Of a stretch of 64,000 nt of DNA, positions 37,234 through 55,114 are shown one piece after another (positions within the stretch are counted from its first letter, which is position 1; each line of letters begins with the position of its first letter). Source of the stretch: Robertkochia aurantiaca (GTDB lineage Bacteria > Bacteroidota > Bacteroidia > Flavobacteriales > Flavobacteriaceae); the NCBI RefSeq assembly GCF_020166495.1, contig NZ_JAINZS010000007.1, positions 124,001 through 188,000 on the forward strand. Direction: 5' to 3'. Below the pieces are notes generated by a model. It was not told the DNA's origin and made no database searches. It saw only the letters and a program-made list of their open reading frames with translations. The translations under genes and the position numbers were made by a program.

Positions 37234-37278
37234 GTAACCGCATAACCGCATAACCGCATAACAGTATAACCGCTACCC
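37234..37278. repeat. 8-bp tandem array ATAACCGC
   Basis: GTAACCGC, two ATAACCGC, ATAACAGT, ATAACCGC, TACCC in 8-bp register. The last unit overlaps the stop codon of the minus-strand DUF2779 gene (stop complement at 37273-37275). Confidence 0.8.
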
Positions 37279-39222
37279 AACAACCTCCCTAAAATACTCA
37301 TAGATCATCACCATGGCGAGGGTATCCAGTTCGCAGTAGCGCAACAAGCCTTGCTTTAAGGCTTCGCGTTCTGCTCCTTCAATCTCTTCGAATTGCAGTT
37401 TGCTATAAGCGGTCAGGGCGGCGCCACCATCAGCTACGTTCTCCATACCTGAAACCAGGCTGTCGAGCGCTTCTTCGCTCCAGGTGTCGAAGAGCGGTGG
37501 CAAACTTTTATACGGACTCACCACTTGCTCATTCTTTACCTGAAGGAAAACCTGATCAGAGGCAAAGTTTTTGGAAGTAACCGCCAGTCTATCGAGGGGT
37601 TGGGTGTATTTATTCCTAAGGAAGTCACTGGACTTCAGGACTGCTGGCAGCACGGCTTTGATCGAAATGGACCCTTTGGTGGCGGGGTCGTAATAGTAGT
37701 CTTTTACCACCTGATACAGATCGATCATATCCCTTTCTCCTTTCCATTTTTTAGCCAGTTTGCCTGGGCTGTGAGAAATACTTTCGATAAATGCCATCAG
37801 CTCTTCCCTGTCGGGTTCATTCGACTCGTAGAGTTGTTCCCAGATCTTACAAACGATGGTATTTTCATGATTGTGATAGCGGAAAATGCTTCCCTGATTT
37901 TTTGAGAGGGCTTCTTTCAGGGCTCGTATAAATTCAAAATTGGGGAATACTCCGGGTTCCACGTTCAGAAACTCCGAAGCGTGCTCCACGCTGCCATCCT
38001 CATAGACGATATGGTGAGAGAACTGAAAGGCGATCTGTTCATAGGGTCGCCGTCCTTTGGTGAAGGGCAAGGCTACTGCTGAGGTTTCAAAGTCGATAAA
38101 ATTAAGCGGGTACTTCCAGTCCAGCATTTCTTCTCTGAGTCCGTCGACCTCCACAAAAGGTTGTTGATCATCTGCCAGGGTTTTCTCTACCTGTATCCAT
38201 CGGCGTTCTGAATTGGAGATCTTTCCGGCTTCCGGTTTCGGATTCACATCTTCTTCACAGAGGTCTTCCATAAAGAGTTTCCCTGCTTCCATGAGTTTCC
38301 CTGAACTGCGAAAGTTCCAGATGTCGAATACCTTCGGACGGTCAATCGCTTCATAGCTTAGTTGCAATTGTTCGCTCCAGCATTGGTGAAATCCACTATG
38401 CTGCGGATTGTCCGGTGCAAAGAATTCACATCCCTTGCAGTGTTTCCCGATAGGTTGAGGAAGCTTTTGATCTTTCAGGTAATATTCTCGATAGAGGGCT
38501 ATATGTTCTTCAAAAGTTCGTCCGTCTCCCCCAGGGTTCTCCCGGTAGATGAATCGGATTTCCTCTGCTACTGAAATATGGGCCAGGAGAGGACCTCCAA
38601 GGTCTTGAAGACTCAATCCTTCTTTTTTGATGATACCGGTTCTGTTACCGCTGGTTTTAGAGATTTTAAAACAATGGTTGATACCGTCTACTGTTGCAGT
38701 TTTGCTTTTATCAACCAGGGTAAGATACGGATGAATCTTCCAATAGGGATGGCACTGCTGCATGACATACTGCTGAAAGGCTATATCATACAGGTACTCT
38801 CGCCAACCTCCTGAAATGTCTTTCCCTTTTTTAATGATAAAAGAATCATGCTCGGAACTGTCAACCGATTTTGCCTTTACCTCACAGAGGTTGATCTGAT
38901 TCCCTTTTTTCTCAAGTATATCGACTCTGACAAAAAGGTTATTATATAGGAAAGCCGCCTCGAAGATGACCACATTTTCCTGCTGAAGCAATTCCTGTGT
39001 ACGATCATGCAACTTTTGATAATCCCAGTCTTCACCCAGTATCGCATGTCCATCAGGAAAATACATTCTCGCCAGTTCTTCCACCTGGAAACCACCTTCA
39101 GCCAGCGCTTCCAGAAACGAATCAGACTCGGCCGTATTCACATATTCCTCTTTTTTGGTGTAGTATAACTTGGTCGGGCACCCTAAGGCCAGCTTAAATC
39201 TCGATTTGGTTAATGTTTTCAT
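37273..39222 (-). CDS. DUF2779-type nuclease: Cas4-like PD-(D/E)XK domain fused to DEDD exonuclease
   Basis: 649 aa. The N-terminal half (about 1-290) has the Cas4/AddB-like layout: Cys15 near the start, PD-(D/E)XK residues Asp101 and E114-V-K116, and a Cys cluster in HCKGCEFF..HQC (about 257-285) that would complete a 4Fe-4S cluster. The C-terminal half carries DEDD 3'-5' exonuclease motifs: FIDFET (Asp377, Glu379) and Y629-x3-D633 in YCELDTLAM at the very end. It would act on DNA ends or ssDNA, and is related to RecB-family/TM0106-like proteins. No CRISPR array or cas gene is near. Left neighbour of the island's restriction-like operon but 4 kb away. Confidence 0.85.
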   Translation of the reverse strand: MKTLTKSRFKLALGCPTKLYYTKKEEYVNTAESDSFLEALAEGGFQVEELARMYFPDGHAILGEDWDYQKLHDRTQELLQQENVVIFEAAFLYNNLFVRVDILEKKGNQINLCEVKAKSVDSSEHDSFIIKKGKDISGGWREYLYDIAFQQYVMQQCHPYWKIHPYLTLVDKSKTATVDGINHCFKISKTSGNRTGIIKKEGLSLQDLGGPLLAHISVAEEIRFIYRENPGGDGRTFEEHIALYREYYLKDQKLPQPIGKHCKGCEFFAPDNPQHSGFHQCWSEQLQLSYEAIDRPKVFDIWNFRSSGKLMEAGKLFMEDLCEEDVNPKPEAGKISNSERRWIQVEKTLADDQQPFVEVDGLREEMLDWKYPLNFIDFETSAVALPFTKGRRPYEQIAFQFSHHIVYEDGSVEHASEFLNVEPGVFPNFEFIRALKEALSKNQGSIFRYHNHENTIVCKIWEQLYESNEPDREELMAFIESISHSPGKLAKKWKGERDMIDLYQVVKDYYYDPATKGSISIKAVLPAVLKSSDFLRNKYTQPLDRLAVTSKNFASDQVFLQVKNEQVVSPYKSLPPLFDTWSEEALDSLVSGMENVADGGAALTAYSKLQFEEIEGAEREALKQGLLRYCELDTLAMVMIYEYFREVVG

Positions 39223-43349: not shown

Positions 43350-43787
43350 ATGACCGATGTGCATGACAAATTTACCCGAAGCTATAATATGAGTCGGATA
43401 AAAGGGTCAGACACAAAGCCTGAGTTAACAGTACGAAGGTTTCTTTATGCTAAAGGATTACGATATCGTCTAAATGTTAAGAAGTTACCAGGTACGCCAG
43501 ATTTGGTTTTCGCAAGATACAAAGCGGTGGTATTCGTACACGGGTGTTTCTGGCATGCTCACAAAGGGTGCAGGTATTTCAAATTACCTGTCACCAGGAG
43601 AGACTGGTGGAAAGAGAAGTTGGAAGGTACTAAAAAAAGAGACCAGGAGGCTATTGAAGAACTTCAGAGGCTTGGATGGCGGGTAGCTGTGATCTGGGAA
43701 TGCCAGTTAAAAGGAAAACAAAAAGGAGAACATCTGACAAGGTTGTACCAATGGGTGAAAAATCAGAAAAACGAAAAATTCCTGTAA
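43350..43787 (+). CDS. Vsr-like very-short-patch-repair endonuclease
   Basis: 145 aa. The ATG at 43350 is preferred over an upstream TTG because it aligns the family start. Family landmarks are RSYNMSRIKGSDTKPE, GTPDLVF (Asp51), VHGCFWHAHKGCRY (His64, His69) and RRDWWKEKL. E. coli Vsr uses Asp51, Thr63, His64 and His69; here position 63 is Val, so one active-site residue differs. Vsr nicks 5' of T in T:G mismatches left by deamination of 5-methylcytosine, protecting a Dcm-like methylation system; some standalone relatives act as restriction nucleases. Its 3' end overlaps the methyltransferase gene by 37 nt. First gene of the defence operon. Confidence 0.93.
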   Translation: MTDVHDKFTRSYNMSRIKGSDTKPELTVRRFLYAKGLRYRLNVKKLPGTPDLVFARYKAVVFVHGCFWHAHKGCRYFKLPVTRRDWWKEKLEGTKKRDQEAIEELQRLGWRVAVIWECQLKGKQKGEHLTRLYQWVKNQKNEKFL

Positions 43788-45313
43788 TCGATTTATTTGC
43801 AGGTCCCGGCGGATTGGGCGAAGGATTTATGAGTGTCATGGATGATGAGAATCAGTCTGTTTTTGATATCCGGGTATCTATAGAAAAAGAAGAGAATGCG
43901 CATAAGACGTTAACGTGGAGAAGTTTTTACCGGCAGTTTACAAAGAAAGGGAAAAAAGTTCCCGCAGTATATTATCAGGTACTTAAGGAAAAAAATCTTG
44001 CAGAAAGAGAGCGACTGATTGAAGAAGCTCTTGAGAAATATCCTGAAGGTAAAGAAGCGCGGGAAGAAGCCTGTCTTATTGAGCTGGGCAGTGAGCAATG
44101 GCCACCAGCAAAGCTCGATGAGCTCATACGAAACCGACTGGGGAAAAGCCCCGGTAATTGGGTGCTTATCGGAGGCCCACCCTGCCAGGCTTATTCCAAT
44201 GCAGGTCGTTCCAGAGTTGGAGGCATCCATGCCGAAGATCATCGTGTCTATCTTTACAAGGAATACCTCCGTATTATTCAGGAGCACCATCCTGCGGTAT
44301 TTGTTATGGAAAATGTACAGGGTCTGCTTTCTGCCTCAGTAAATGGTGAAAAGGTGTTCGACTGGATGAAAAATGACCTGTCCTGTGATGGAGAATATGT
44401 GCTTAAATCCTTTGTTAAGGAGGTGGAAGAGGATAAGGATTACCTAATTAAGGCAGAAGATTATGGAGTGCCTCAGAAAAGGCACAGGGTCATTCTGCTT
44501 GGTATTCGTAAAGACCTGAATCAGCAACACAGCTATTTGAAAAGAAAGCCGGAGGTGACTTTGAAATCGGTGATCGGGAAACTTCCGGAGATCAGAAGTA
44601 CGCTGAACCGGCGCTTTGCAGGGTATAAACAAAATGAATTGACCAGTCAGGGGAAGCCTAAGCGTATTTATGAAAAGGCGATCGATTCTGATGATAACTG
44701 GAAAAACCTGATGAATGATTTTGTGACAGAAATTAAAGGATGGGGATCTTTGTCTCTCAATGGATTGTCCCGCGGTTTTGACGGTCCTGTAAAAACGACG
44801 GGGAGTGAATTTGAACCTGCTGCCGCTACCTTACCAAAAAATCATTTATTAAGGCCATGGTATCTGGACAAAAGGCTGAAGGGTGTGCCCAACCACGAGT
44901 CCCGTTCTCACCTTACTCAGGATTTAAAGAGGTATTTGTTTGCAACGCTGTTTGCAGAAAGTGAAAAGAGATCACCGAAGCTTGATGATTTTGCCGGTCA
45001 TCATGAAGATCTGATACCTGATCACTCCAGTGCCGATTCCGGTAAATTTGTAGATCGCTTCAAGGTGCAATTGCCAGACCGTGCCGCGACGACGATCACT
45101 TCTCACATATCGAAAGACGGTCATTATTTTATTCATTATGACCCGAAGCAATGCCGGAGCCTTACGGTTCGTGAAGCGGCAAGGGTGCAAACCTTCCCCG
45201 ACAATTACTTGTTCAGAGGTTCGAGAACCAAACAGTTTCAACAGGTGGGGAATGCAGTGCCTCCATTTCTGGCGAATCAAATAGCAGAGATTGTAGCAAA
45301 AATCCTTGACTAA
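43751..45313 (+). CDS. DNA (cytosine-5) methyltransferase
   Basis: 520 aa. The start at 43751 (MGEKSEKRK) is chosen because motif I follows immediately. Motifs: I DLFAGPGGLGEGF (14-26), IV GGPPCQAYSN with catalytic Cys145, VI FVMENVQGL (Glu187), VIII RHRVILLG, IX LTVREAARVQTFPD, X QVGNAVPPFLA. The region between VIII and IX, about 200 residues, is longer than in small Dcm enzymes and would hold the target-recognition domain; the recognised sequence cannot be read off. It marks self DNA for the operon's nucleases. Confidence 0.96.
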   Translation: MGEKSEKRKIPVIDLFAGPGGLGEGFMSVMDDENQSVFDIRVSIEKEENAHKTLTWRSFYRQFTKKGKKVPAVYYQVLKEKNLAERERLIEEALEKYPEGKEAREEACLIELGSEQWPPAKLDELIRNRLGKSPGNWVLIGGPPCQAYSNAGRSRVGGIHAEDHRVYLYKEYLRIIQEHHPAVFVMENVQGLLSASVNGEKVFDWMKNDLSCDGEYVLKSFVKEVEEDKDYLIKAEDYGVPQKRHRVILLGIRKDLNQQHSYLKRKPEVTLKSVIGKLPEIRSTLNRRFAGYKQNELTSQGKPKRIYEKAIDSDDNWKNLMNDFVTEIKGWGSLSLNGLSRGFDGPVKTTGSEFEPAAATLPKNHLLRPWYLDKRLKGVPNHESRSHLTQDLKRYLFATLFAESEKRSPKLDDFAGHHEDLIPDHSSADSGKFVDRFKVQLPDRAATTITSHISKDGHYFIHYDPKQCRSLTVREAARVQTFPDNYLFRGSRTKQFQQVGNAVPPFLANQIAEIVAKILD

Positions 45314-45315
45314 CT

Positions 45316-46821
45316 ATGACTATGAATTCTGATTACGAAAAATGCCCCCCTAAAGCAGATGCAATGATTCAATCCATGCGTGCTGTGGGATATGATTTTG
45401 GGATGGCGGTTTCTGATATTGTCGACAACAGTATCTCGGCAGGAGCAAAAAATATCTGGATCTCTTATTGCTGGAAGGGAGAAGATTCTTTTATGACCTT
45501 TTTGGATGATGGTTCAGGGATGACGGATGATGAGCTGTATAATGCTATGCGCTTAGGGTCAACCAATCCGAAAGATATCAGGGAACCTCATGACCTGGGC
45601 AGATTCGGGATGGGACTTAAAACAGCGTCGTTTTCTCAGTGTAAATTGTTAACCGTTGCTTCGAAAAAAGAAGGGGCTGTTTCAACCCGTTGTTGGGATC
45701 TTGATTTAGTCGATGAGCATCAGGAATGGTTGTTAAAGAAAACACCTTACAGGTCAGCTTCTGAATTAATGAAAGGGTTAGATGAGGTAAATTCCGGAAC
45801 GATGGTTATCTGGGAAAAACCGGACAGACTTCTTGATCAATTAGAATCTGAACAGGAAAGTCTGGACAGCTTTTTGAAAAAAATACATGCTTTGTCTCAA
45901 TATTTGGGAATGGTATTTCACCGTTATCTGGAAACCCCGTCGAGAGTGAAAATTTATCTCGGAAACGTGGAAGGAAGTTTTATCCCTGTTAAAGCCTGGG
46001 ATCCATTTCTTAAAACGCATAAGGCAACCAGAGAACTGAGTGATGAGGCATTTAGAATTTTTAACAACAAGGTCAATGTAAAGCCTTACGTTTTACCGCA
46101 CATCTCCAAACTGGAAGGGAAAGAACATGAGGAAGCTGCGGGCCCCAAAGGCTGGAATGCCCATCAGGGAATCTACCTGTATCGTAAAGAGAGGCTCATT
46201 ATAGCAGGGGGGTGGTTAGGTTTAGGGTATAAACAGGAAGACCACTACAAACTTGCCAGAATTATGGTCGATATTCCTAATAGTATGGATCAGCAATGGC
46301 ATATAGATGTAAAGAAAGCAGCTGCCAAACTCCCTGATGTTTTTGCGAATAATCTAAAGAAAATGGCAAAGGTTACCCGGGAAAAAGCCTCGGAAGCCTA
46401 TCGTTTCAGAGGGAAATATGGAGCCAGAAAAACGCCTTCGGTTAATCGGTTTGTATGGAAAAAGACCGAAAAAAAGGGAAAAACAAGCTATAAGGTAGAC
46501 AAAGAACATCCCGTTGTTAATCAATTGTTAGGCGAATTAAAAGATCATAAATTAGCAGTAACAAGGCTTTTAAAGTTAATTGAATCTACAGTTCCCGTTG
46601 AAACCATAATTATTGACAATGCCGAGAAACCAGACTCTCTCGAAAAAGAAAAGCATGTCATTACATCCCGTAATTTCCCTCTTAAAGAATGGTTCGAAGA
46701 TTTTGTTGACCTTGAAATTCAAAAGGGAGTTGCCAAGGAGGATGCATTTAGGAAGGTGCTTTCTATGGAGCCTTTTATTGACTATCCTGAATTATACGCG
46801 TTAATCGAAAATTATGAATAG
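45316..46821 (+). CDS. GHKL (MutL/MORC-like) ATPase of R-M-like defence system
   Basis: 501 aa. The N-terminal Bergerat-fold ATPase has N-box DIVDNSISAGA (Asp37, Asn38), G1 DDGSGM (64-69) and G2 GRFGMGLKTAS (95-105). The middle part (about 200-370) is a transducer-like domain with a conserved-type Lys-containing loop (DVKKAAAKLP). The C-terminus (about 390-501) is charged and helical. Related ATPases in prokaryotic R-M-like operons were grouped with eukaryotic MORC proteins by comparative genomics. ATP-driven clamp closure on DNA is the expected mode. It lies 2 nt after the methyltransferase and overlaps the Z1 gene by 8 nt. Confidence 0.92.
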   Translation: MTMNSDYEKCPPKADAMIQSMRAVGYDFGMAVSDIVDNSISAGAKNIWISYCWKGEDSFMTFLDDGSGMTDDELYNAMRLGSTNPKDIREPHDLGRFGMGLKTASFSQCKLLTVASKKEGAVSTRCWDLDLVDEHQEWLLKKTPYRSASELMKGLDEVNSGTMVIWEKPDRLLDQLESEQESLDSFLKKIHALSQYLGMVFHRYLETPSRVKIYLGNVEGSFIPVKAWDPFLKTHKATRELSDEAFRIFNNKVNVKPYVLPHISKLEGKEHEEAAGPKGWNAHQGIYLYRKERLIIAGGWLGLGYKQEDHYKLARIMVDIPNSMDQQWHIDVKKAAAKLPDVFANNLKKMAKVTREKASEAYRFRGKYGARKTPSVNRFVWKKTEKKGKTSYKVDKEHPVVNQLLGELKDHKLAVTRLLKLIESTVPVETIIIDNAEKPDSLEKEKHVITSRNFPLKEWFEDFVDLEIQKGVAKEDAFRKVLSMEPFIDYPELYALIENYE

Positions 46822-49549
46822 CAATTTATACAAACAGGCGGTAACCATGGTTCAAATGTATTTGGAACCAGGGGTTCCTGTTACCAGTGAGGATTTAGCT
46901 ACCAAGGTAGAAGAGGTTTGCAGCCTTCCCAAATTCAGGGAGCTGGATATTAAAAAGGTCCAGGAGTTAGTGGAAATGGATGTGTTTATCACCTACTCCG
47001 GAGCGGGGGTGTTGGATGCAAAAAGGGATAATCATGAAGAATGGTTGTTTGAAACAGGAGGTACAGTTAAAAAGGAGAGAGAAATTGACTGGAGGTTTTG
47101 GAAGCATTACGAGATGTACCTTCGTAAAAATAATTTTCCAGAGAAAGCAATTGAGAACACGGATCTTTGGACGAACAGAATTTTGATGCGATTGGAAGAT
47201 CCCAAAAGAAAAGGGGGATGGTCCAGAAAGGGAATGGTGGTTGGTGAAGTTCAGTCCGGAAAAACGGCAAATTATACAGGATTAATATGTAAGGCAGCAG
47301 ATGCAGGGTATAAAATTATTATCGTACTGGCCGGCTTGCATAAAAGCCTGAGAGCGCAGACCCAGCATCGTGTCGATGAGGCTTTTATTGGGTTTAATAC
47401 TGATAAGGATGACAACAAGTACAGAGAGTCATCACGTATTGGTGTGGGGACTTTTCCTAATCACCCCATAGTTAACTATCTTACAACCAGTAATGATAAT
47501 GGTGACTTTTCAAATGCAATAGCCCAGGGAGCAGGTATTCAGCTTGGAGGGAATCAACATCCGGTAGTGCTTGTCATTAAAAAAAACAAAAGTATTATAA
47601 ACAACTTGATACTATGGTGCAGGAGAATGGGCTTGCGTCGGGGGAATAATACCATCGAAAACGTTCCTTTATTGCTTATTGATGATGAGTGTGATAATGC
47701 TTCGGTGAATACCAATAAATTAAACTTACATGGGGAGGATACTCCCAGAGATGAAGATGGGAATCCCATTGATGAATTTGACCCTACAGCGATCAATCAG
47801 GGAATCAGGACGCTTCTTAAATTATTTAATCAAAGTGCCTATGTAGGTTATACAGCAACGCCCTTTGCAAATATTCTTATTCACCGGGAGTCTGCACATC
47901 AGGATTTCGGAGAGGATTTATTTCCAAAGAATTTTATCATATCACTCCCTAAGCCTTCTAATTATGTGGGGCCTTCCAAGTTTTTCGGTTTGGACGGGGA
48001 TGATATTGCAGGCCTTGAAAGAGTTGAGTCTCTGCCACTCTATAATGCAGTAAGGGATGCAGGTAATTTTATACCCAATAAGCATAAATCAGATTTCAGA
48101 TTACAGCAAGGATTGCCAAATTCCCTTGTAAAAGCTATTCGGTGTTTTGTATTGAGTTCGGCTATCCGCTATGCGAGGGGGATGGAAAATCAACATAATT
48201 CGATGTTGATTCACGTCACGAGATTTACCCTTGTTCAGGGGCAGGTGGGAGACCTCGTTCAGGATTTTGTAGATAAAATGGTCCGCAGGCTTAAGTTTGG
48301 TGGAAGTGGTGCAGGTTCCGAATGGCATATTTTACAAAAACTGTATGAAGATGAATACGAAGACATAACTTCTCAGGTTTATGGTGATCAAGAAATTTTG
48401 CCATGGGGAGAGGTGAAAAATAATATTCCAAGGGTTCTTGAAAAACTTCAAAAAGTAAAGCGTATCAATGGTTCTGCCGGAGATATTCTTGAATATAAGA
48501 AATACAAGGACGTTGGGATTAATGTCATCGCCATTGGGGGCGATAAGCTTTCCAGAGGACTTACCCTGGAGGGGCTTACAGTAAGTTATTATCTGCGGGC
48601 TTCCAGAACCTATGACACCTTACTCCAAATGGGCAGATGGTTTGGGTATCGTCCCAATTATCTGGATGTTTGCAGATTATTTACCACTCCTGATTTATAT
48701 CGGAATTACAGGCATATTGCCATGGCTTCTGCAGAGTTAAAGCAGGAATTTGATTATATGGTGAAACACGATCAGGAACCCTCTCAATATGGATTAAAAG
48801 TGCGATCCCATCCTGAAACCCTAACCGTTACCGCAATAAATAAAATGCGGAGTGCTTCCAAAATGAAGGTAACCTACGATGGTCATATGGTACAAACCCT
48901 GGTTTGCTCAAATAAGAAGACTCATCTGGTGCAAAATCATAAGTTGTTTACAGACTTGGTAAAACAATATCAATGGGAAGAATTTGGAAAATCAAAACGG
49001 GTTGGTTTTAAGACAACAAAGGTCTCCGGAGATACTATTATAAAATTCATTTCAAATTTTAATGTTCCGGGGGCGGTAATGAATTTTAACGCAAAGAGTA
49101 TCTGCAATTATATTGCACTTCAAAATAAACATCATGAGTTAACCGAATGGACTATAGGTATTTTATCTCCGGAAGATAAAGAAGTGTTTGCTCAGATCGA
49201 CGAGAAAGACTTTTGCTATACCCGCCGAAGTAGTGAGGTTGAAATAGAAAAGGATAAGATCAGGTTCGGCAAGGCCATTTTGAGTCCGACTCATGAGAAA
49301 ATTGATTTGACAACAGAAGAGCGGTTAAGACTGGCTGAAACCGGAGGCACGCCAAAGGAAATCAGACAAGTGCGATCTGCAAAGAGAGGACTTTTACTGA
49401 TCTATATTTTAAAAGGAGAGGATGAACAGGGGCATTCGTATGGTACCGAAGAAGATCCTGTTTTAGGCTTAGTCATGAGCTTTCCGAAAGGCAGGGAAAC
49501 CCGCGAAGTGGAATATGTGATAGATGCGTTGATCGCTGAAAATATTTAA
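46814..49549 (+). CDS. Z1-domain P-loop ATPase (SF2-helicase-like)
   Basis: 911 aa. Z1-family features: Walker A-like GEVQSGKT (Lys150), Walker B LLIDDECDNAS (Asp290, Asp291, Glu292), YVGYTATPFAN (about 351), a SF2-like motif V region GGDKLSRGLTLEGL (Arg581) and the arginine-finger motif QMGRWFGYR (Arg608). N-terminal (1-130) and C-terminal (650-911) extensions lack known motifs. Predicted DNA translocase or remodeller working with the GHKL ATPase and the PD-(D/E)XK subunit. No TM or signal. Confidence 0.93.
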   Translation: MNSNLYKQAVTMVQMYLEPGVPVTSEDLATKVEEVCSLPKFRELDIKKVQELVEMDVFITYSGAGVLDAKRDNHEEWLFETGGTVKKEREIDWRFWKHYEMYLRKNNFPEKAIENTDLWTNRILMRLEDPKRKGGWSRKGMVVGEVQSGKTANYTGLICKAADAGYKIIIVLAGLHKSLRAQTQHRVDEAFIGFNTDKDDNKYRESSRIGVGTFPNHPIVNYLTTSNDNGDFSNAIAQGAGIQLGGNQHPVVLVIKKNKSIINNLILWCRRMGLRRGNNTIENVPLLLIDDECDNASVNTNKLNLHGEDTPRDEDGNPIDEFDPTAINQGIRTLLKLFNQSAYVGYTATPFANILIHRESAHQDFGEDLFPKNFIISLPKPSNYVGPSKFFGLDGDDIAGLERVESLPLYNAVRDAGNFIPNKHKSDFRLQQGLPNSLVKAIRCFVLSSAIRYARGMENQHNSMLIHVTRFTLVQGQVGDLVQDFVDKMVRRLKFGGSGAGSEWHILQKLYEDEYEDITSQVYGDQEILPWGEVKNNIPRVLEKLQKVKRINGSAGDILEYKKYKDVGINVIAIGGDKLSRGLTLEGLTVSYYLRASRTYDTLLQMGRWFGYRPNYLDVCRLFTTPDLYRNYRHIAMASAELKQEFDYMVKHDQEPSQYGLKVRSHPETLTVTAINKMRSASKMKVTYDGHMVQTLVCSNKKTHLVQNHKLFTDLVKQYQWEEFGKSKRVGFKTTKVSGDTIIKFISNFNVPGAVMNFNAKSICNYIALQNKHHELTEWTIGILSPEDKEVFAQIDEKDFCYTRRSSEVEIEKDKIRFGKAILSPTHEKIDLTTEERLRLAETGGTPKEIRQVRSAKRGLLLIYILKGEDEQGHSYGTEEDPVLGLVMSFPKGRETREVEYVIDALIAENI

Positions 49550-49551
49550 TA

Positions 49552-50532
49552 ATGGTATTAGACTACTTTAGAAACACCTGGGAAGAGTTATCAGGATTAA
49601 AAACCGATGAGCAACATTATGTTCTGAGCAAAATAATTCGTGAGGGTGTTCATTTGGGTATTGATAGTTATAAGGGCTCCCGGCTACTTGTGATTGAACT
49701 TGATCATGAGAACTCCAGAAATATTCTTATTACTGCACCTGCATGGAAAGGGATAAAATTTTCAGCATTTCCTTTCCAAAATAACAGGGGCGGTTTTTTT
49801 CTTGAACTCACCATTGATGGGTTTAGTGACATTTTTGAAGCCATAAGTTTAGACATTGTAACAGGTCTTGAAAATTCAGAGAAATCTGAAAGATATGAGA
49901 TTGTCCGTTCGGTTATTGATAAGTGGAAAATGTTTTTCGACAGGAATAATGACGGAAGGTTGTCGTTGAGTCAGCAAAAAGGGCTATTCGGAGAATTATG
50001 TGGTCTGCATACCATATGTGATAAAATCGGAAGTATTGATTCGTTGAAGGCATGGGAGGGGCCTCTTAAAAAATTACATGATTTTAAATGTAAAGGAGGA
50101 AATCTGGAGATTAAATCAACGGCCTTTAATTCACCCCTCAAAGTCAGAATAACGAATGAAAAACAGCTGGATTCCGGGGGGCGTGATCTGCTTTTTCTGG
50201 CAGTGTATGTTTTACAGGAATCTGAGAATAAAGGAAAAACCTTAAAGGGCTTTATCCGGGAGCTTAGGGAGCGTTTTTCTGAAAACCCCATAGCCGCTCA
50301 GTTATTCGAAGATTTATTGGTAATGTCGGGTTATCATGACAGCAATGATATGCATTACGACATTAAACGCTATTTGGTAATGGATCCTGTTTTTTTTGAA
50401 ATAAAGGAAGAGTTTCCGAAGATTACCGATGTGCCTGAAGGCATATTTGATGTGAAATACACCCTTGACCTGTCCGGATGCAGCGAATTTAAAACTGCGC
50501 CCGAAATGGTTTGGAACAAATTACTTAATTAG
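49552..50532 (+). CDS. PD-(D/E)XK nuclease of the Z1/MORC-type system (DUF4420/PF14390-like)
   Basis: 326 aa. The nuclease core is D177 ... E186-I-K188 in HDFKCKGGNLEIKS, preceded by a conserved helix GLFGELCGL (about 144-152) that provides the usual upstream Glu. This is the 'PD-(D/E)XK motif protein' regularly found beside Z1 and AIPR genes, and the likely DNA-cleaving subunit of the restriction module. It starts 2 nt after the Z1 stop and ends 4 nt before the AIPR start. Confidence 0.9.
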   Translation: MVLDYFRNTWEELSGLKTDEQHYVLSKIIREGVHLGIDSYKGSRLLVIELDHENSRNILITAPAWKGIKFSAFPFQNNRGGFFLELTIDGFSDIFEAISLDIVTGLENSEKSERYEIVRSVIDKWKMFFDRNNDGRLSLSQQKGLFGELCGLHTICDKIGSIDSLKAWEGPLKKLHDFKCKGGNLEIKSTAFNSPLKVRITNEKQLDSGGRDLLFLAVYVLQESENKGKTLKGFIRELRERFSENPIAAQLFEDLLVMSGYHDSNDMHYDIKRYLVMDPVFFEIKEEFPKITDVPEGIFDVKYTLDLSGCSEFKTAPEMVWNKLLN

Positions 50533-50536
50533 TTGT

Positions 50537-52597
50537 ATGGAGAATATTGAAGAGTTTTATCAACACCTGATGCAGCGCATCTTTGCTGAATCCAATGTAG
50601 AAGAAGAGGAATTGTTTCAGGAACAGGTGTTTATAGATAATCTGATCGATGTTTTACATGATGCAGGGGAATTAAATAACGGTATCAGGTGTCAGCATAA
50701 AACCAGGGGCATAAAGATTGATGGTTATGACATCAACCCCGAACTTAATACTTTAGATTTACTCGTTGCCGATTTTAGGTCAGGAGAGGCTGCTATTGCT
50801 GTGGTAACCCCATCAGATTATAATCGTTCCTTCAAAAGAGCCCGGACATTTATTGACAGATGTATGAAAGATACGTTTGTTGATGGCATAGAAGAGTCGG
50901 CGGAAATACATGACCTTATTAGAACTGTCAGAGAGGAGTGGGACAACCTGAGACGTATAAGAATTATACTGATTACTAATGGGCAGGTTAAGAAGTTTGA
51001 TGGATCGTCAGAGAGCCTTGAAGGGAGAATAGATGTATCTTATCAAATCTGGGATCTGAACAGAATGTATCGCTTTGTATCAAGCGGTAATAAAGGGGAG
51101 CCTATAAATGTCGATATATCTGCATTTATGGATCAACCTTTGAATTACGTCTCAGCGCCTTCTCAGGATGGTTCATATGATACCTATCTGTGTGTTATTC
51201 CCGGAACTTTTCTTTTTGACCTGTACGATAAATGGGGGACTAAGCTTCTGGAAAGAAATGTGCGTGCTTATTTGCAGGCAAGAGGTAAGGTAAATCGGGG
51301 AATCCGGAAGACCTTGAAAGAGGAAGGTCATATGTTTATGGCTTATAATAATGGCATAACCGTTACTGCGCAATCAGTGAAAATTATAGGGTCTCAGGAT
51401 GGTAAATGTATTCAGGCCATTGAAGATTTTCAGATTGTAAACGGAGGTCAGACTACGGCATCCATATGGCATGCCAGATCAAAGGATAAGGCCAATCTGG
51501 TTGATGTTTATGTTCAGATGAAACTCACTGTAATTTCTGATGAGGAAACCTTGGATTCCATGGTTCCCTTGATCAGCGAATACTCCAACTCCCAGAACAA
51601 GGTAAATACGGCAGATTTTTCTGCTAATGACCCGTTTCATATCAATGTGGAAAAACTTTCCCGAAGGGTTTATGCGCCTGATACGGAAGGAGGGAACAAT
51701 GAGACATTGTGGTTTTATGAACGGTCACGTGGTTCTTATGACGAGACCAGAAATCGTGAGAGAACCCCAGCAAGAATCAAAGCGTGGGATAAGATACATC
51801 CCAGGAGGCAAAAATTCGATAAGGTTCAACTGGCAAAACTTGAGAAAACATGGATGCTTCAGCCGCATGTAGTAAGTACCGGCGGTCAAAAGAATTTTTC
51901 TTCTTTCCAGTTGGATATCAAAGAGCAGGGTCTTCAGAAAGTAGATGAGAAGTACTTCAAAGAATTGGTTGCAAAGCTGATTATATGGAAGGAAGCAGAA
52001 AAAATTGTTTCAAGACAGGGTATTCCTGGCTACAGGGCTAATATCGTGACCTATACCTTGGCTTCCATTTTAAAACACACATCCAGAAGAATCAATTTGG
52101 CTGATATTTGGGAGAAGCAGGAGATCTCCCTTGCCTTTGAAAATACTGTTGATGCTGTGGCCTATAAAATAAGAGAGTTGATCACAGACACCGAATACAA
52201 CGTGACAGAATATTGTAAGAAAAAAGTTTGCTGGGAAAAAATACAGGATAATAAGACCATTAAGGATACGATACCTACCAGCCTTAAAAAAGAGTTGATA
52301 AATGTGGCCCCTCCAACTTATACAAATACTACCACTTCTCCCATGATAAAAGTAAATGAAAAAGATGAACAAACTATAGAGCGGGTCAAACAGGTAGAAT
52401 CGGCAATTTGGAAAAAACTATCAAGATGGGGAAAACAGACTGGGGCACTACAGACTTGGGAAAATGGCATATGTTATAGTGTTGGAAAAAGATTGTCGTA
52501 TGGAAATGAACCAACTCTAAAACAGGCAAAGAATGCGGAGAAAATCTATGAGAAAGCTAAGAATCTTGGCTTTGATGCACAGAGTGAATTGGAATAA
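50537..52597 (+). CDS. AIPR-family (abortive infection phage resistance) protein
   Basis: 686 aa from the ATG at 50537 (MENIEEFYQ). AIPR hallmarks: LLERNVRAYLQARGKVNRGIRKTL (about 240-263), FMAYNNGITVTA (about 271-282) and FQIVNGGQTTASI (about 299-311), followed by EYSNSQNKVN. An N-terminal restriction-fold-like region (about 50-160) can be glimpsed (IDGYDINPELNTLDLLVADF). AIPR is named from abortive phage resistance; biochemical function in these operons is not known to me. Last gene of the six-gene run. Confidence 0.92.
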   Translation: MENIEEFYQHLMQRIFAESNVEEEELFQEQVFIDNLIDVLHDAGELNNGIRCQHKTRGIKIDGYDINPELNTLDLLVADFRSGEAAIAVVTPSDYNRSFKRARTFIDRCMKDTFVDGIEESAEIHDLIRTVREEWDNLRRIRIILITNGQVKKFDGSSESLEGRIDVSYQIWDLNRMYRFVSSGNKGEPINVDISAFMDQPLNYVSAPSQDGSYDTYLCVIPGTFLFDLYDKWGTKLLERNVRAYLQARGKVNRGIRKTLKEEGHMFMAYNNGITVTAQSVKIIGSQDGKCIQAIEDFQIVNGGQTTASIWHARSKDKANLVDVYVQMKLTVISDEETLDSMVPLISEYSNSQNKVNTADFSANDPFHINVEKLSRRVYAPDTEGGNNETLWFYERSRGSYDETRNRERTPARIKAWDKIHPRRQKFDKVQLAKLEKTWMLQPHVVSTGGQKNFSSFQLDIKEQGLQKVDEKYFKELVAKLIIWKEAEKIVSRQGIPGYRANIVTYTLASILKHTSRRINLADIWEKQEISLAFENTVDAVAYKIRELITDTEYNVTEYCKKKVCWEKIQDNKTIKDTIPTSLKKELINVAPPTYTNTTTSPMIKVNEKDEQTIERVKQVESAIWKKLSRWGKQTGALQTWENGICYSVGKRLSYGNEPTLKQAKNAEKIYEKAKNLGFDAQSELE

Positions 52598-52808: not shown

Positions 52809-53576
52809 ATGTATCGTATAGCAACCTGGAATCTGGAGCGGCCTAAACCGAATAGGGAAAAGACCCGGCTCGCGCTACATGCCATTAAAGTTTTGGATCC
52901 TGATATACTGGTGCTCACAGAGAGTTCAGATGCTGTTGATTTACCAGGTTACCATATGGTTTCTGCCGATTCTTTCCCGGATAAACCAGACGAGCAATGG
53001 GTAGCGATATGTTCCAAATGGCCCGTGGTGAAGCAAATTCCCACATTAGATTCCTGCCGAACCTGCTGTGCTGTTGTGAAGACTCCTTTTGGAAAAATAA
53101 CGGTGTACGGCACAATTATCCCATATCATATGGCCGGAGTGAACGGGTCGAGATACGAAGACAGAGGGTATAAAGCATGGCAATGGCACTATAAAGATAT
53201 TGCTGATCAAGGCATGGATTGGCAGCGAATCATCAAGGCTCACCCCGAATATCCGTTTTTTGTTGTCGGAGATTTTAACCAAACCAGGGATGGAGAGAAA
53301 GGAGGATATGGAACGATCAAAGGCAGAAAATTGCTTGCCGAAACCTTCGACAGTTTGGAGCTGAGGTGTTTAACTGAATTGAACTTAGCCAGGCTGGGCA
53401 TGTTAAATGTTCACCCAAAGAAGGCAAAAGTCAGGAGAAATGTGGATCATATCGCAGTTAGCAGATTTTGGTTGGATAATATTGAAGATTTCCGCGTGGG
53501 AGCATGGGACGAGTTCACGGAAGGAGGGAAAAACATGTCTGATCATAACGGCGTGTATGTAGATTTTATTCCTTAG
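52809..53576 (+). CDS. Endonuclease/exonuclease/phosphatase (EEP) family protein
   Basis: 255 aa, cytoplasmic. EEP/DNase I-like catalytic set: WNLE (Asn8), LTES (Glu38), GDFNQ (Asp155, Asn157), NVDHIA (Asp213) and SDHNG (Asp245, His246). It could be a DNA/RNA nuclease, AP endonuclease or phosphatase. It follows the AIPR gene in the same direction after 211 bp and is probably a loosely linked member of the defence island. Confidence 0.9.
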   Translation: MYRIATWNLERPKPNREKTRLALHAIKVLDPDILVLTESSDAVDLPGYHMVSADSFPDKPDEQWVAICSKWPVVKQIPTLDSCRTCCAVVKTPFGKITVYGTIIPYHMAGVNGSRYEDRGYKAWQWHYKDIADQGMDWQRIIKAHPEYPFFVVGDFNQTRDGEKGGYGTIKGRKLLAETFDSLELRCLTELNLARLGMLNVHPKKAKVRRNVDHIAVSRFWLDNIEDFRVGAWDEFTEGGKNMSDHNGVYVDFIP

Positions 53577-54199: not shown

Positions 54200-55114
54200 T
54201 TAATGCAGCAAGACCTCATTTTCAATAATCCAGTCTCTGATTCGATTTAGATTCTTTAATCCCTCTTCCGCTGCGGGTATTTGATCGTTAAAATTTTTTG
54301 TTCTGTCAATTACTGAAGAGTTCACTCTGATGGAAAAACTTTTGGTATGGGTTTTTATCTTAGCCCAATTGGGGAGTTGTCTGGTGAGGGTAGCTTTCAC
54401 TTCCTCTGAATAACCGAAGAAAGTGGCATCGGTATTACCTTGCGCAAATTTGTGATAAAAGACGATGTTGTTCAATCTCCTGTCATACATCATAGGCCAG
54501 TCGCTTTGATGCGGAACAATGTCGGGACGTTTCATTTCCAGATCCGGATAATACTCCTCCCGGTACCGCCAGTAGGCATGCCAAAATGCCTGAACAGGCT
54601 CGGAGTTTACCGGATGATATCCACGTCTTAATTTTTCGATGGCAATTCTCAAAAGCTCACTCTTAAACCAGCTTCTACGGGTGCCAGTAGCTTTGAGTTG
54701 ATCGGCTACTTCTTCATAGGTTACATAACTATCAAAATCATTTTGATTTTTACAATACAATTCAGGGGCGACTAAAATTGCAAAGGCAAGGTCACAGTCG
54801 TTTGAAGCAATATAGTTCTCAGATCTTTGTTTATAACGATGGTATTGTTCATCCTGAAAGCAGGCGTCGAGCTTATTTTCAATAAGAAGATATACCTTTT
54901 TATCATTTGAAAAATAGGAAAGAAGGATGTCTGTTTCTCCCAAGCCAAAGGCTGTTATGCTTTTCCAGGCACCTTCTGTTATTGTCAACTCAGGAAGATT
55001 TAACGAATGAACAAACCATTTCGCGAAAGCATCATGAGTGTTTAATTCCTCGAGCAAGAGTAAATCTATATCTCGTTCCTGTACAGATTCTACGGGTAAA
55101 ATTGAACGATCCAT
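54200..55114 (-). CDS. PD-(D/E)XK nuclease superfamily protein
   Basis: 304 aa. An N-terminal helix (LLEELNTHDAFAKWF) and then GETDILLSY (Glu60, Asp62) and YLLIENKLDA (E79-N-K81) give a PD-(D/E)XK core. The segment FQDEQYHRYKQRSENY after it is typical of RecB/PDDEXK_4-like proteins. The C-terminal 140 residues are an uncharacterised beta-rich domain that could recognise the target (AFWHAYWRYREEY, FFGYSEEVKATL). First gene of a two-gene operon closing the island; its upstream gap 55115-55321 shows no clear promoter. Confidence 0.8.
   Translation of the reverse strand: MDRSILPVESVQERDIDLLLLEELNTHDAFAKWFVHSLNLPELTITEGAWKSITAFGLGETDILLSYFSNDKKVYLLIENKLDACFQDEQYHRYKQRSENYIASNDCDLAFAILVAPELYCKNQNDFDSYVTYEEVADQLKATGTRRSWFKSELLRIAIEKLRRGYHPVNSEPVQAFWHAYWRYREEYYPDLEMKRPDIVPHQSDWPMMYDRRLNNIVFYHKFAQGNTDATFFGYSEEVKATLTRQLPNWAKIKTHTKSFSIRVNSSVIDRTKNFNDQIPAAEEGLKNLNRIRDWIIENEVLLH

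Follow-up and report, generated by a model that had tools for sequence, protein, structure and literature searches.

A six-gene operon of Robertkochia aurantiaca, lying within a 64-kb window of contig NZ_JAINZS010000007.1 (positions 124,001-188,000; coordinates below are those of the window, the whole stretch analysed), associates a C5-cytosine DNA methyltransferase (MTase) with four genes related to those of the Mza system. The genes lie on one strand (+), and an earlier note on this DNA, which had recognized the operon and its protein families, was confirmed in this respect by Pfam and PADLOC searches. The first gene (43350..43787) encodes a 145 amino acid (aa) very-short-patch T:G mismatch endonuclease, Vsr (Pfam Vsr, E-value 4.4e-32), whose product reaches 143.1 bits against TIGR00632 (cut-off 97.85) and matches the structure of a DNA mismatch endonuclease (1cw0, E-value 2.1e-37). 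It is followed by the 520-aa C5-MTase (43751..45313; DNA_methylase, E-value 1.5e-50), the sole C5-MTase match in its own genome, with M.HaeIII as best solved relative (E-value 6.3e-22). The four remaining products are named hereafter B, C, D and E for their likeness to MzaB, MzaC, MzaD and MzaE, and together form what we call the engine: a 501-aa GHKL/MORC-type ATPase (B, 45316..46821; HATPase_c_3, E-value 1.7e-35; PADLOC MzaB, 3.7e-103), which also matches MORC3 (5.7e-6); a superfamily II helicase (C, 46814..49549; PADLOC MzaC, below 1e-23); a 326-aa PD-(D/E)XK nuclease of the DUF4420 family (D, 49552..50532; PF14390, 2.1e-60; PADLOC MzaD, 1.9e-24); and a 686-aa AIPR protein (E, 50537..52597; PADLOC MzaE, 1.1e-92), with AIPR_N at residues 32-179 (6.7e-38) and AIPR at residues 238-552 (5.2e-98).

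The motifs expected of these families are conserved. The S5 domain of B carries the MORC motif GhXhhpXXRhl as G285-IYLYRKER-L-I, residues G285, Y289, R290 and R293 being found at 1.00 of 105, and the C-terminal motif DThhQXuRhFG of C reads D601-TLLQMGRWFG, where D601, Q605, R608, F610 and G611 are invariant (56/56) and T602 is present in at least 90%. Judging from sequence, D has the E-D-ExK signature of a putative active nuclease (E148, D177 and E186-x-K188, conserved at 0.99 of 103). A fold search with E, whose predicted structure has a pLDDT of 91.4, returned no significant match.

The earlier note had also ranked the operon as the strongest candidate in the window for an under-described system, but this type of operon has already been described, both among MORC restriction-modification (R-M) operons and as Mza, of which it is an MTase-encoding relative. 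Mza is reportedly an anti-phage system, mzaABCDE, presented by Gao in 2020. Like Mza, the operon encodes B, C, D and E homologues that follow one another in this order on one strand (PADLOC, all E-values below 1e-23), and it differs by Vsr and C5-MTase genes at its head and by the lack of the MzaA sigma factor, no MzaA-profile match being found in the 64-kb window. The four proteins also remain well under the NCBIfam equivalog cut-offs (410.8/850 bits for B against NF041932 MzaB, 675.1/1500 for C, 145.5/420 for D and 396.9/1050 for E), and no mechanism for Mza was found in the portions of the literature searched. As far as the accessible text of Iyer 2008 (PMC2292703) goes, from which the MORC motif is taken, the operon is one further instance of the third type of MORC R-M operons, with linked cytosine methylase, Vsr and AIPR, all three motifs, and no difference seen in a comparison made with the paper's text. 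It also resembles the putative type II defence system of Miller 2022 (PMC9523054, section 11), differing by Vsr in first place; the transcriptional regulator featured there was not recognized among the neighbours scanned, a search that covered part of the open reading frames (ORFs). The CglI/NgoAVII systems differ in several respects: a scan of nine proteins in and around the operon found no R-protein with a PLD nuclease and a B3 domain, the nuclease belongs to DUF4420, and a MORC ATPase and AIPR are additional.

The proposal of the earlier note depended on the genes co-occurring in other genomes, and this is what was found. A C5-MTase is linked in 67 of the 71 loci (numbered L below) whose B-C-D-E cassette is complete and flanked by at least 4 kb on either side; it is missing from one Chitinophaga locus and from three E. 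coli mza loci (L116, a duplicate of L062, was not counted; L142 and L143, which nearly repeat L141, are included in the 71 but omitted from the tree discussed below). Linked MTases vary in length from 325 aa to more than 700 aa, and fall into nine families at 35% identity. An R-M reading of the operon, as the earlier note had given, is thus well supported by gene context and MTase linkage, while the mechanism that accompanied it is inferred.

The MTase hardly follows the co-evolving engine, an observation which, in the parts of the literature searched, has not been reported, and this exchange under a stable engine is probably what will surprise specialists. Pairwise identities were compared by Spearman correlation, with 300 permutations, across 65 loci having all six genes. 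B, C, D and E are mutually correlated (0.66-0.86, each reached by 0/300 permutations), and MTase and Vsr more loosely so (0.42, 0/300), whereas MTase against B, C, D and E gives 0.11, 0.04, 0.16 and 0.05, values reached by 17, 90, 3 and 64 of the 300 permutations. Saturation alone does not explain these low values, since D is itself fast-evolving, yet correlates with C. Because distant pairs dominate a rank correlation, and because the tree indicates partial inheritance, the correlation by itself does not prove that exchange is free: on the engine tree (FastTree of B+C, 95 rows), MTase family changes at least 18 times, for a minimum possible of 8 and a mean of 35.6 in shuffles (lowest 31), tree counts according to which the MTase appears to be inherited for a time, then replaced.

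The clearest group of swaps, from Pseudomonas, Paracoccus and Rhizobiales, comprises L042 (Pseudomonas sp. GM50), L046 (Paracoccus sanguinis), L048, L063 (from a metagenome-assembled genome) and L067. Between the subgroups L042, L046/L048 and L063/L067, B-E are 76-93% identical and MTases 28-43% (aligned identity), those of L042 and L046/L048 being 43% identical and both belonging to another family than the MTase of L063/L067. A scan in 30-column windows, from which the leading windows of B and E were excluded as presumed ORF-start differences, found in this group no block of B-E dropping like a target-recognition domain (TRD): the lowest windows reach 43-53% (the N-terminus of D, least conserved with 43-50%, and one stretch of E), whereas the MTase falls to 0-10%. 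The pair L047/L051 was not used as an example, as L047 has two MTases (48%, and 25% over a short stretch, identical to that of L051). Taken together, these comparisons suggest that the MTase, though almost always present, can be exchanged, which recasts Mza, listed as 'anti-phage' in databases, as a system of the restriction-modification type.

Repair of T:G mismatches is frequently encoded with the MTase, Vsr being present in 52/71 loci. HhH-GPD glycosylase genes occur in four loci with no Vsr match, where they adjoin the MTase (L021:17327-18019, L022:7278-7955) or directly follow the AIPR gene (L013:15926-16597, L018:10710-11399), and look like replacements of Vsr for this repair. Some actinobacterial C5-MTases of 665-720 aa, that of L039:6169-8175 (-) and those of related loci, bear a glycosylase-like C-terminal stretch, which in L039 shows 23% identity over 199 aa (E-value 8e-13) and is not called by Pfam. 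Fourteen further loci of the 71, outside E. coli, have neither Vsr nor standalone glycosylase matches; of these, L071 carries the glycosylase-like fusion and L089 also lacks the MTase. A linked T:G repair gene is therefore common, not universal, and such genes agree with a real, mutagenic 5-methylcytosine (m5C) mark. That Vsr could act as the restriction nuclease was judged unlikely, given that it is canonical and close to a known mismatch endonuclease, and that a glycosylase is found in four Vsr-less loci.

MzaA (called at over 100 bits; sigma-like matches in four more loci, L019, L020, L033 and L037, failed the criteria and were not counted) occurs in one clade only, with a single change on the B+C tree, and correlates with B-E (0.79-0.90) instead of the MTase (0.05; 20 loci), which rules it out as a general sequence reader. 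E. coli mza, carried by 55/5426 genomes, sits in this clade, and its nearest tree relatives (L034, L070, L076) have MTase and Vsr. As none was seen linked in the E. coli loci inspected, the linked MTase was probably lost on the way to this species; that Dcm replaced it is a guess. A dcm match is found in 5316/5426 E. coli genomes, and in 5307 of them it covers 80% or more of the gene (a match, which does not speak for intactness). One strain, the mouse commensal M19, combines mza with an annotated dcm-vsr. The five E. coli mza loci inspected all adjoin yecA (L157 and L158 were judged from record annotation only). Separately, L143 (E. coli ES5) contains two tandem mza cassettes, the second cut by the end of the stretch, and mzaB of L157 (E. 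coli G8) is apparently interrupted by an IS421 element.

How is self recognized by such a system? The exchange of the MTase and the lack of a TRD-like block in B-E suggest that self may be read by the MTase itself or as m5C. Three observations weigh against this proposal: MTase families are distributed non-randomly on the engine tree, which points to partial co-inheritance; across the MTase swap that separates L046/L048 from L063/L067, Vsr retains 61-74% identity, so that these MTases could share a target site; and no linked C5-MTase was found at the five E. coli loci inspected (in 25-kb stretches, 55 genomes carrying mza), so that a dedicated linked MTase is not required everywhere.

In a first form of this proposal, which we tentatively consider possible, the MTase would act as a replaceable subunit that gives the entire complex its specificity, recruiting or licensing B-E at unmethylated sites. 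Its being nearly constant yet swappable is in line with this, and a precedent exists in BREX, where PglX/BrxX is both methyltransferase and specificity factor according to the portions consulted of PMC11341690 and PMC11842806. The shared logic would be limited to this role, as the operon has a C5 rather than a PglX-type MTase, and a predicted nuclease, and the protein scan turned up no BREX gene. The diversity of the linked MTases in size and family fits less well with a dedicated subunit, as does E. coli mza.

An ordinary matched R-M system, where a fixed reader in B-E would recognize the MTase's own site as in type II systems or CglI, seems to us somewhat unlikely. It accounts for the near-constant linkage of the MTase, for the partly clade-wise inheritance of its families and for a Vsr kept across a swap between MTases that may share their target, and the comparatively variable N-terminus of D also speaks in its favour; CglI is modelled as binding its site via the R-protein. 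Against it stand the near absence of correlation between MTase and engine distances, and swaps that leave no TRD-like trace in B-E.

The second form of the proposal, in which the engine reads m5C in any context, is unlikely: a motor meeting no m5C over some distance would trigger cutting, and the host would be protected by whichever C5-MTase it carries, in E. coli by Dcm. MTase swaps without engine change would follow, as would E. coli mza without linked MTase in a species where dcm is frequent, and in L003 the engine of a sigma-factor Mza cassette adjoins a divergent, apparently complete set of MTase, Vsr and EcoRII-C restriction enzyme genes (L003:1874-4794, -). However, no m5C-reading domain was recognized in B-E, E being in addition without fold match, and the dcm point is weak, since C5-MTases are frequent in prokaryotes (some C5-MTase in 10/14 controls). 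It is more doubtful still that Mza-type engines in general have no sequence reading of their own, C5-methylated DNA as such being self, the linked MTase exchangeable and Dcm its substitute in E. coli; if true, restriction would here operate with a sequence-free self mark, and Dcm would acquire a role in immunity. Two questions can then be put to the test in E. coli K-12, namely whether mzaABCDE needs Dcm and whether an exchange of the MTase alters what is restricted.

Abortive infection, with E as a toxin killing the infected cell and MTase and nuclease as sensors, is highly improbable. The AIPR family name and the similarity of E to PADLOC AbiU (2.1e-28; MzaE reaches 1.1e-92) are annotation only. 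Moreover, E is the last gene of the cassette in the 97 complete loci and evolves together with nuclease and motor, as an engine subunit would.

An endonuclease/exonuclease/phosphatase (EEP)-family gene (52809-53576, +) lies 211 bp downstream of the operon; it was ruled out as a seventh subunit, as its one-sequence profile matched no other locus in 93 records, and is probably cargo. Further away are a PDDEXK_4 protein gene (54200-55114, -) with weak PADLOC PDC-S26 matches, possibly a further defence gene, and, upstream, a DUF2779 protein gene (37273-39222, -). In the nearest genus relative found, whose neighbourhood is rearranged, the points that correspond to window positions 27.8 kb and 55.3 kb enclose 8.3 kb without a match to the window. 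Among the compared loci, AspBHI_N + Mrr proteins, a domain pair named after a modification-dependent restriction enzyme, occur at L005:14658-15827, L058:6454-7761 and L084:2522-3829, all with a C5-MTase and a Mza-type engine. Nine loci have a second GHKL/histidine-kinase-like gene (e.g. L002:2108-5496), accompanied in six by a response-regulator-like partner family, for which the part seen of PMC8011034 offers a comparison.
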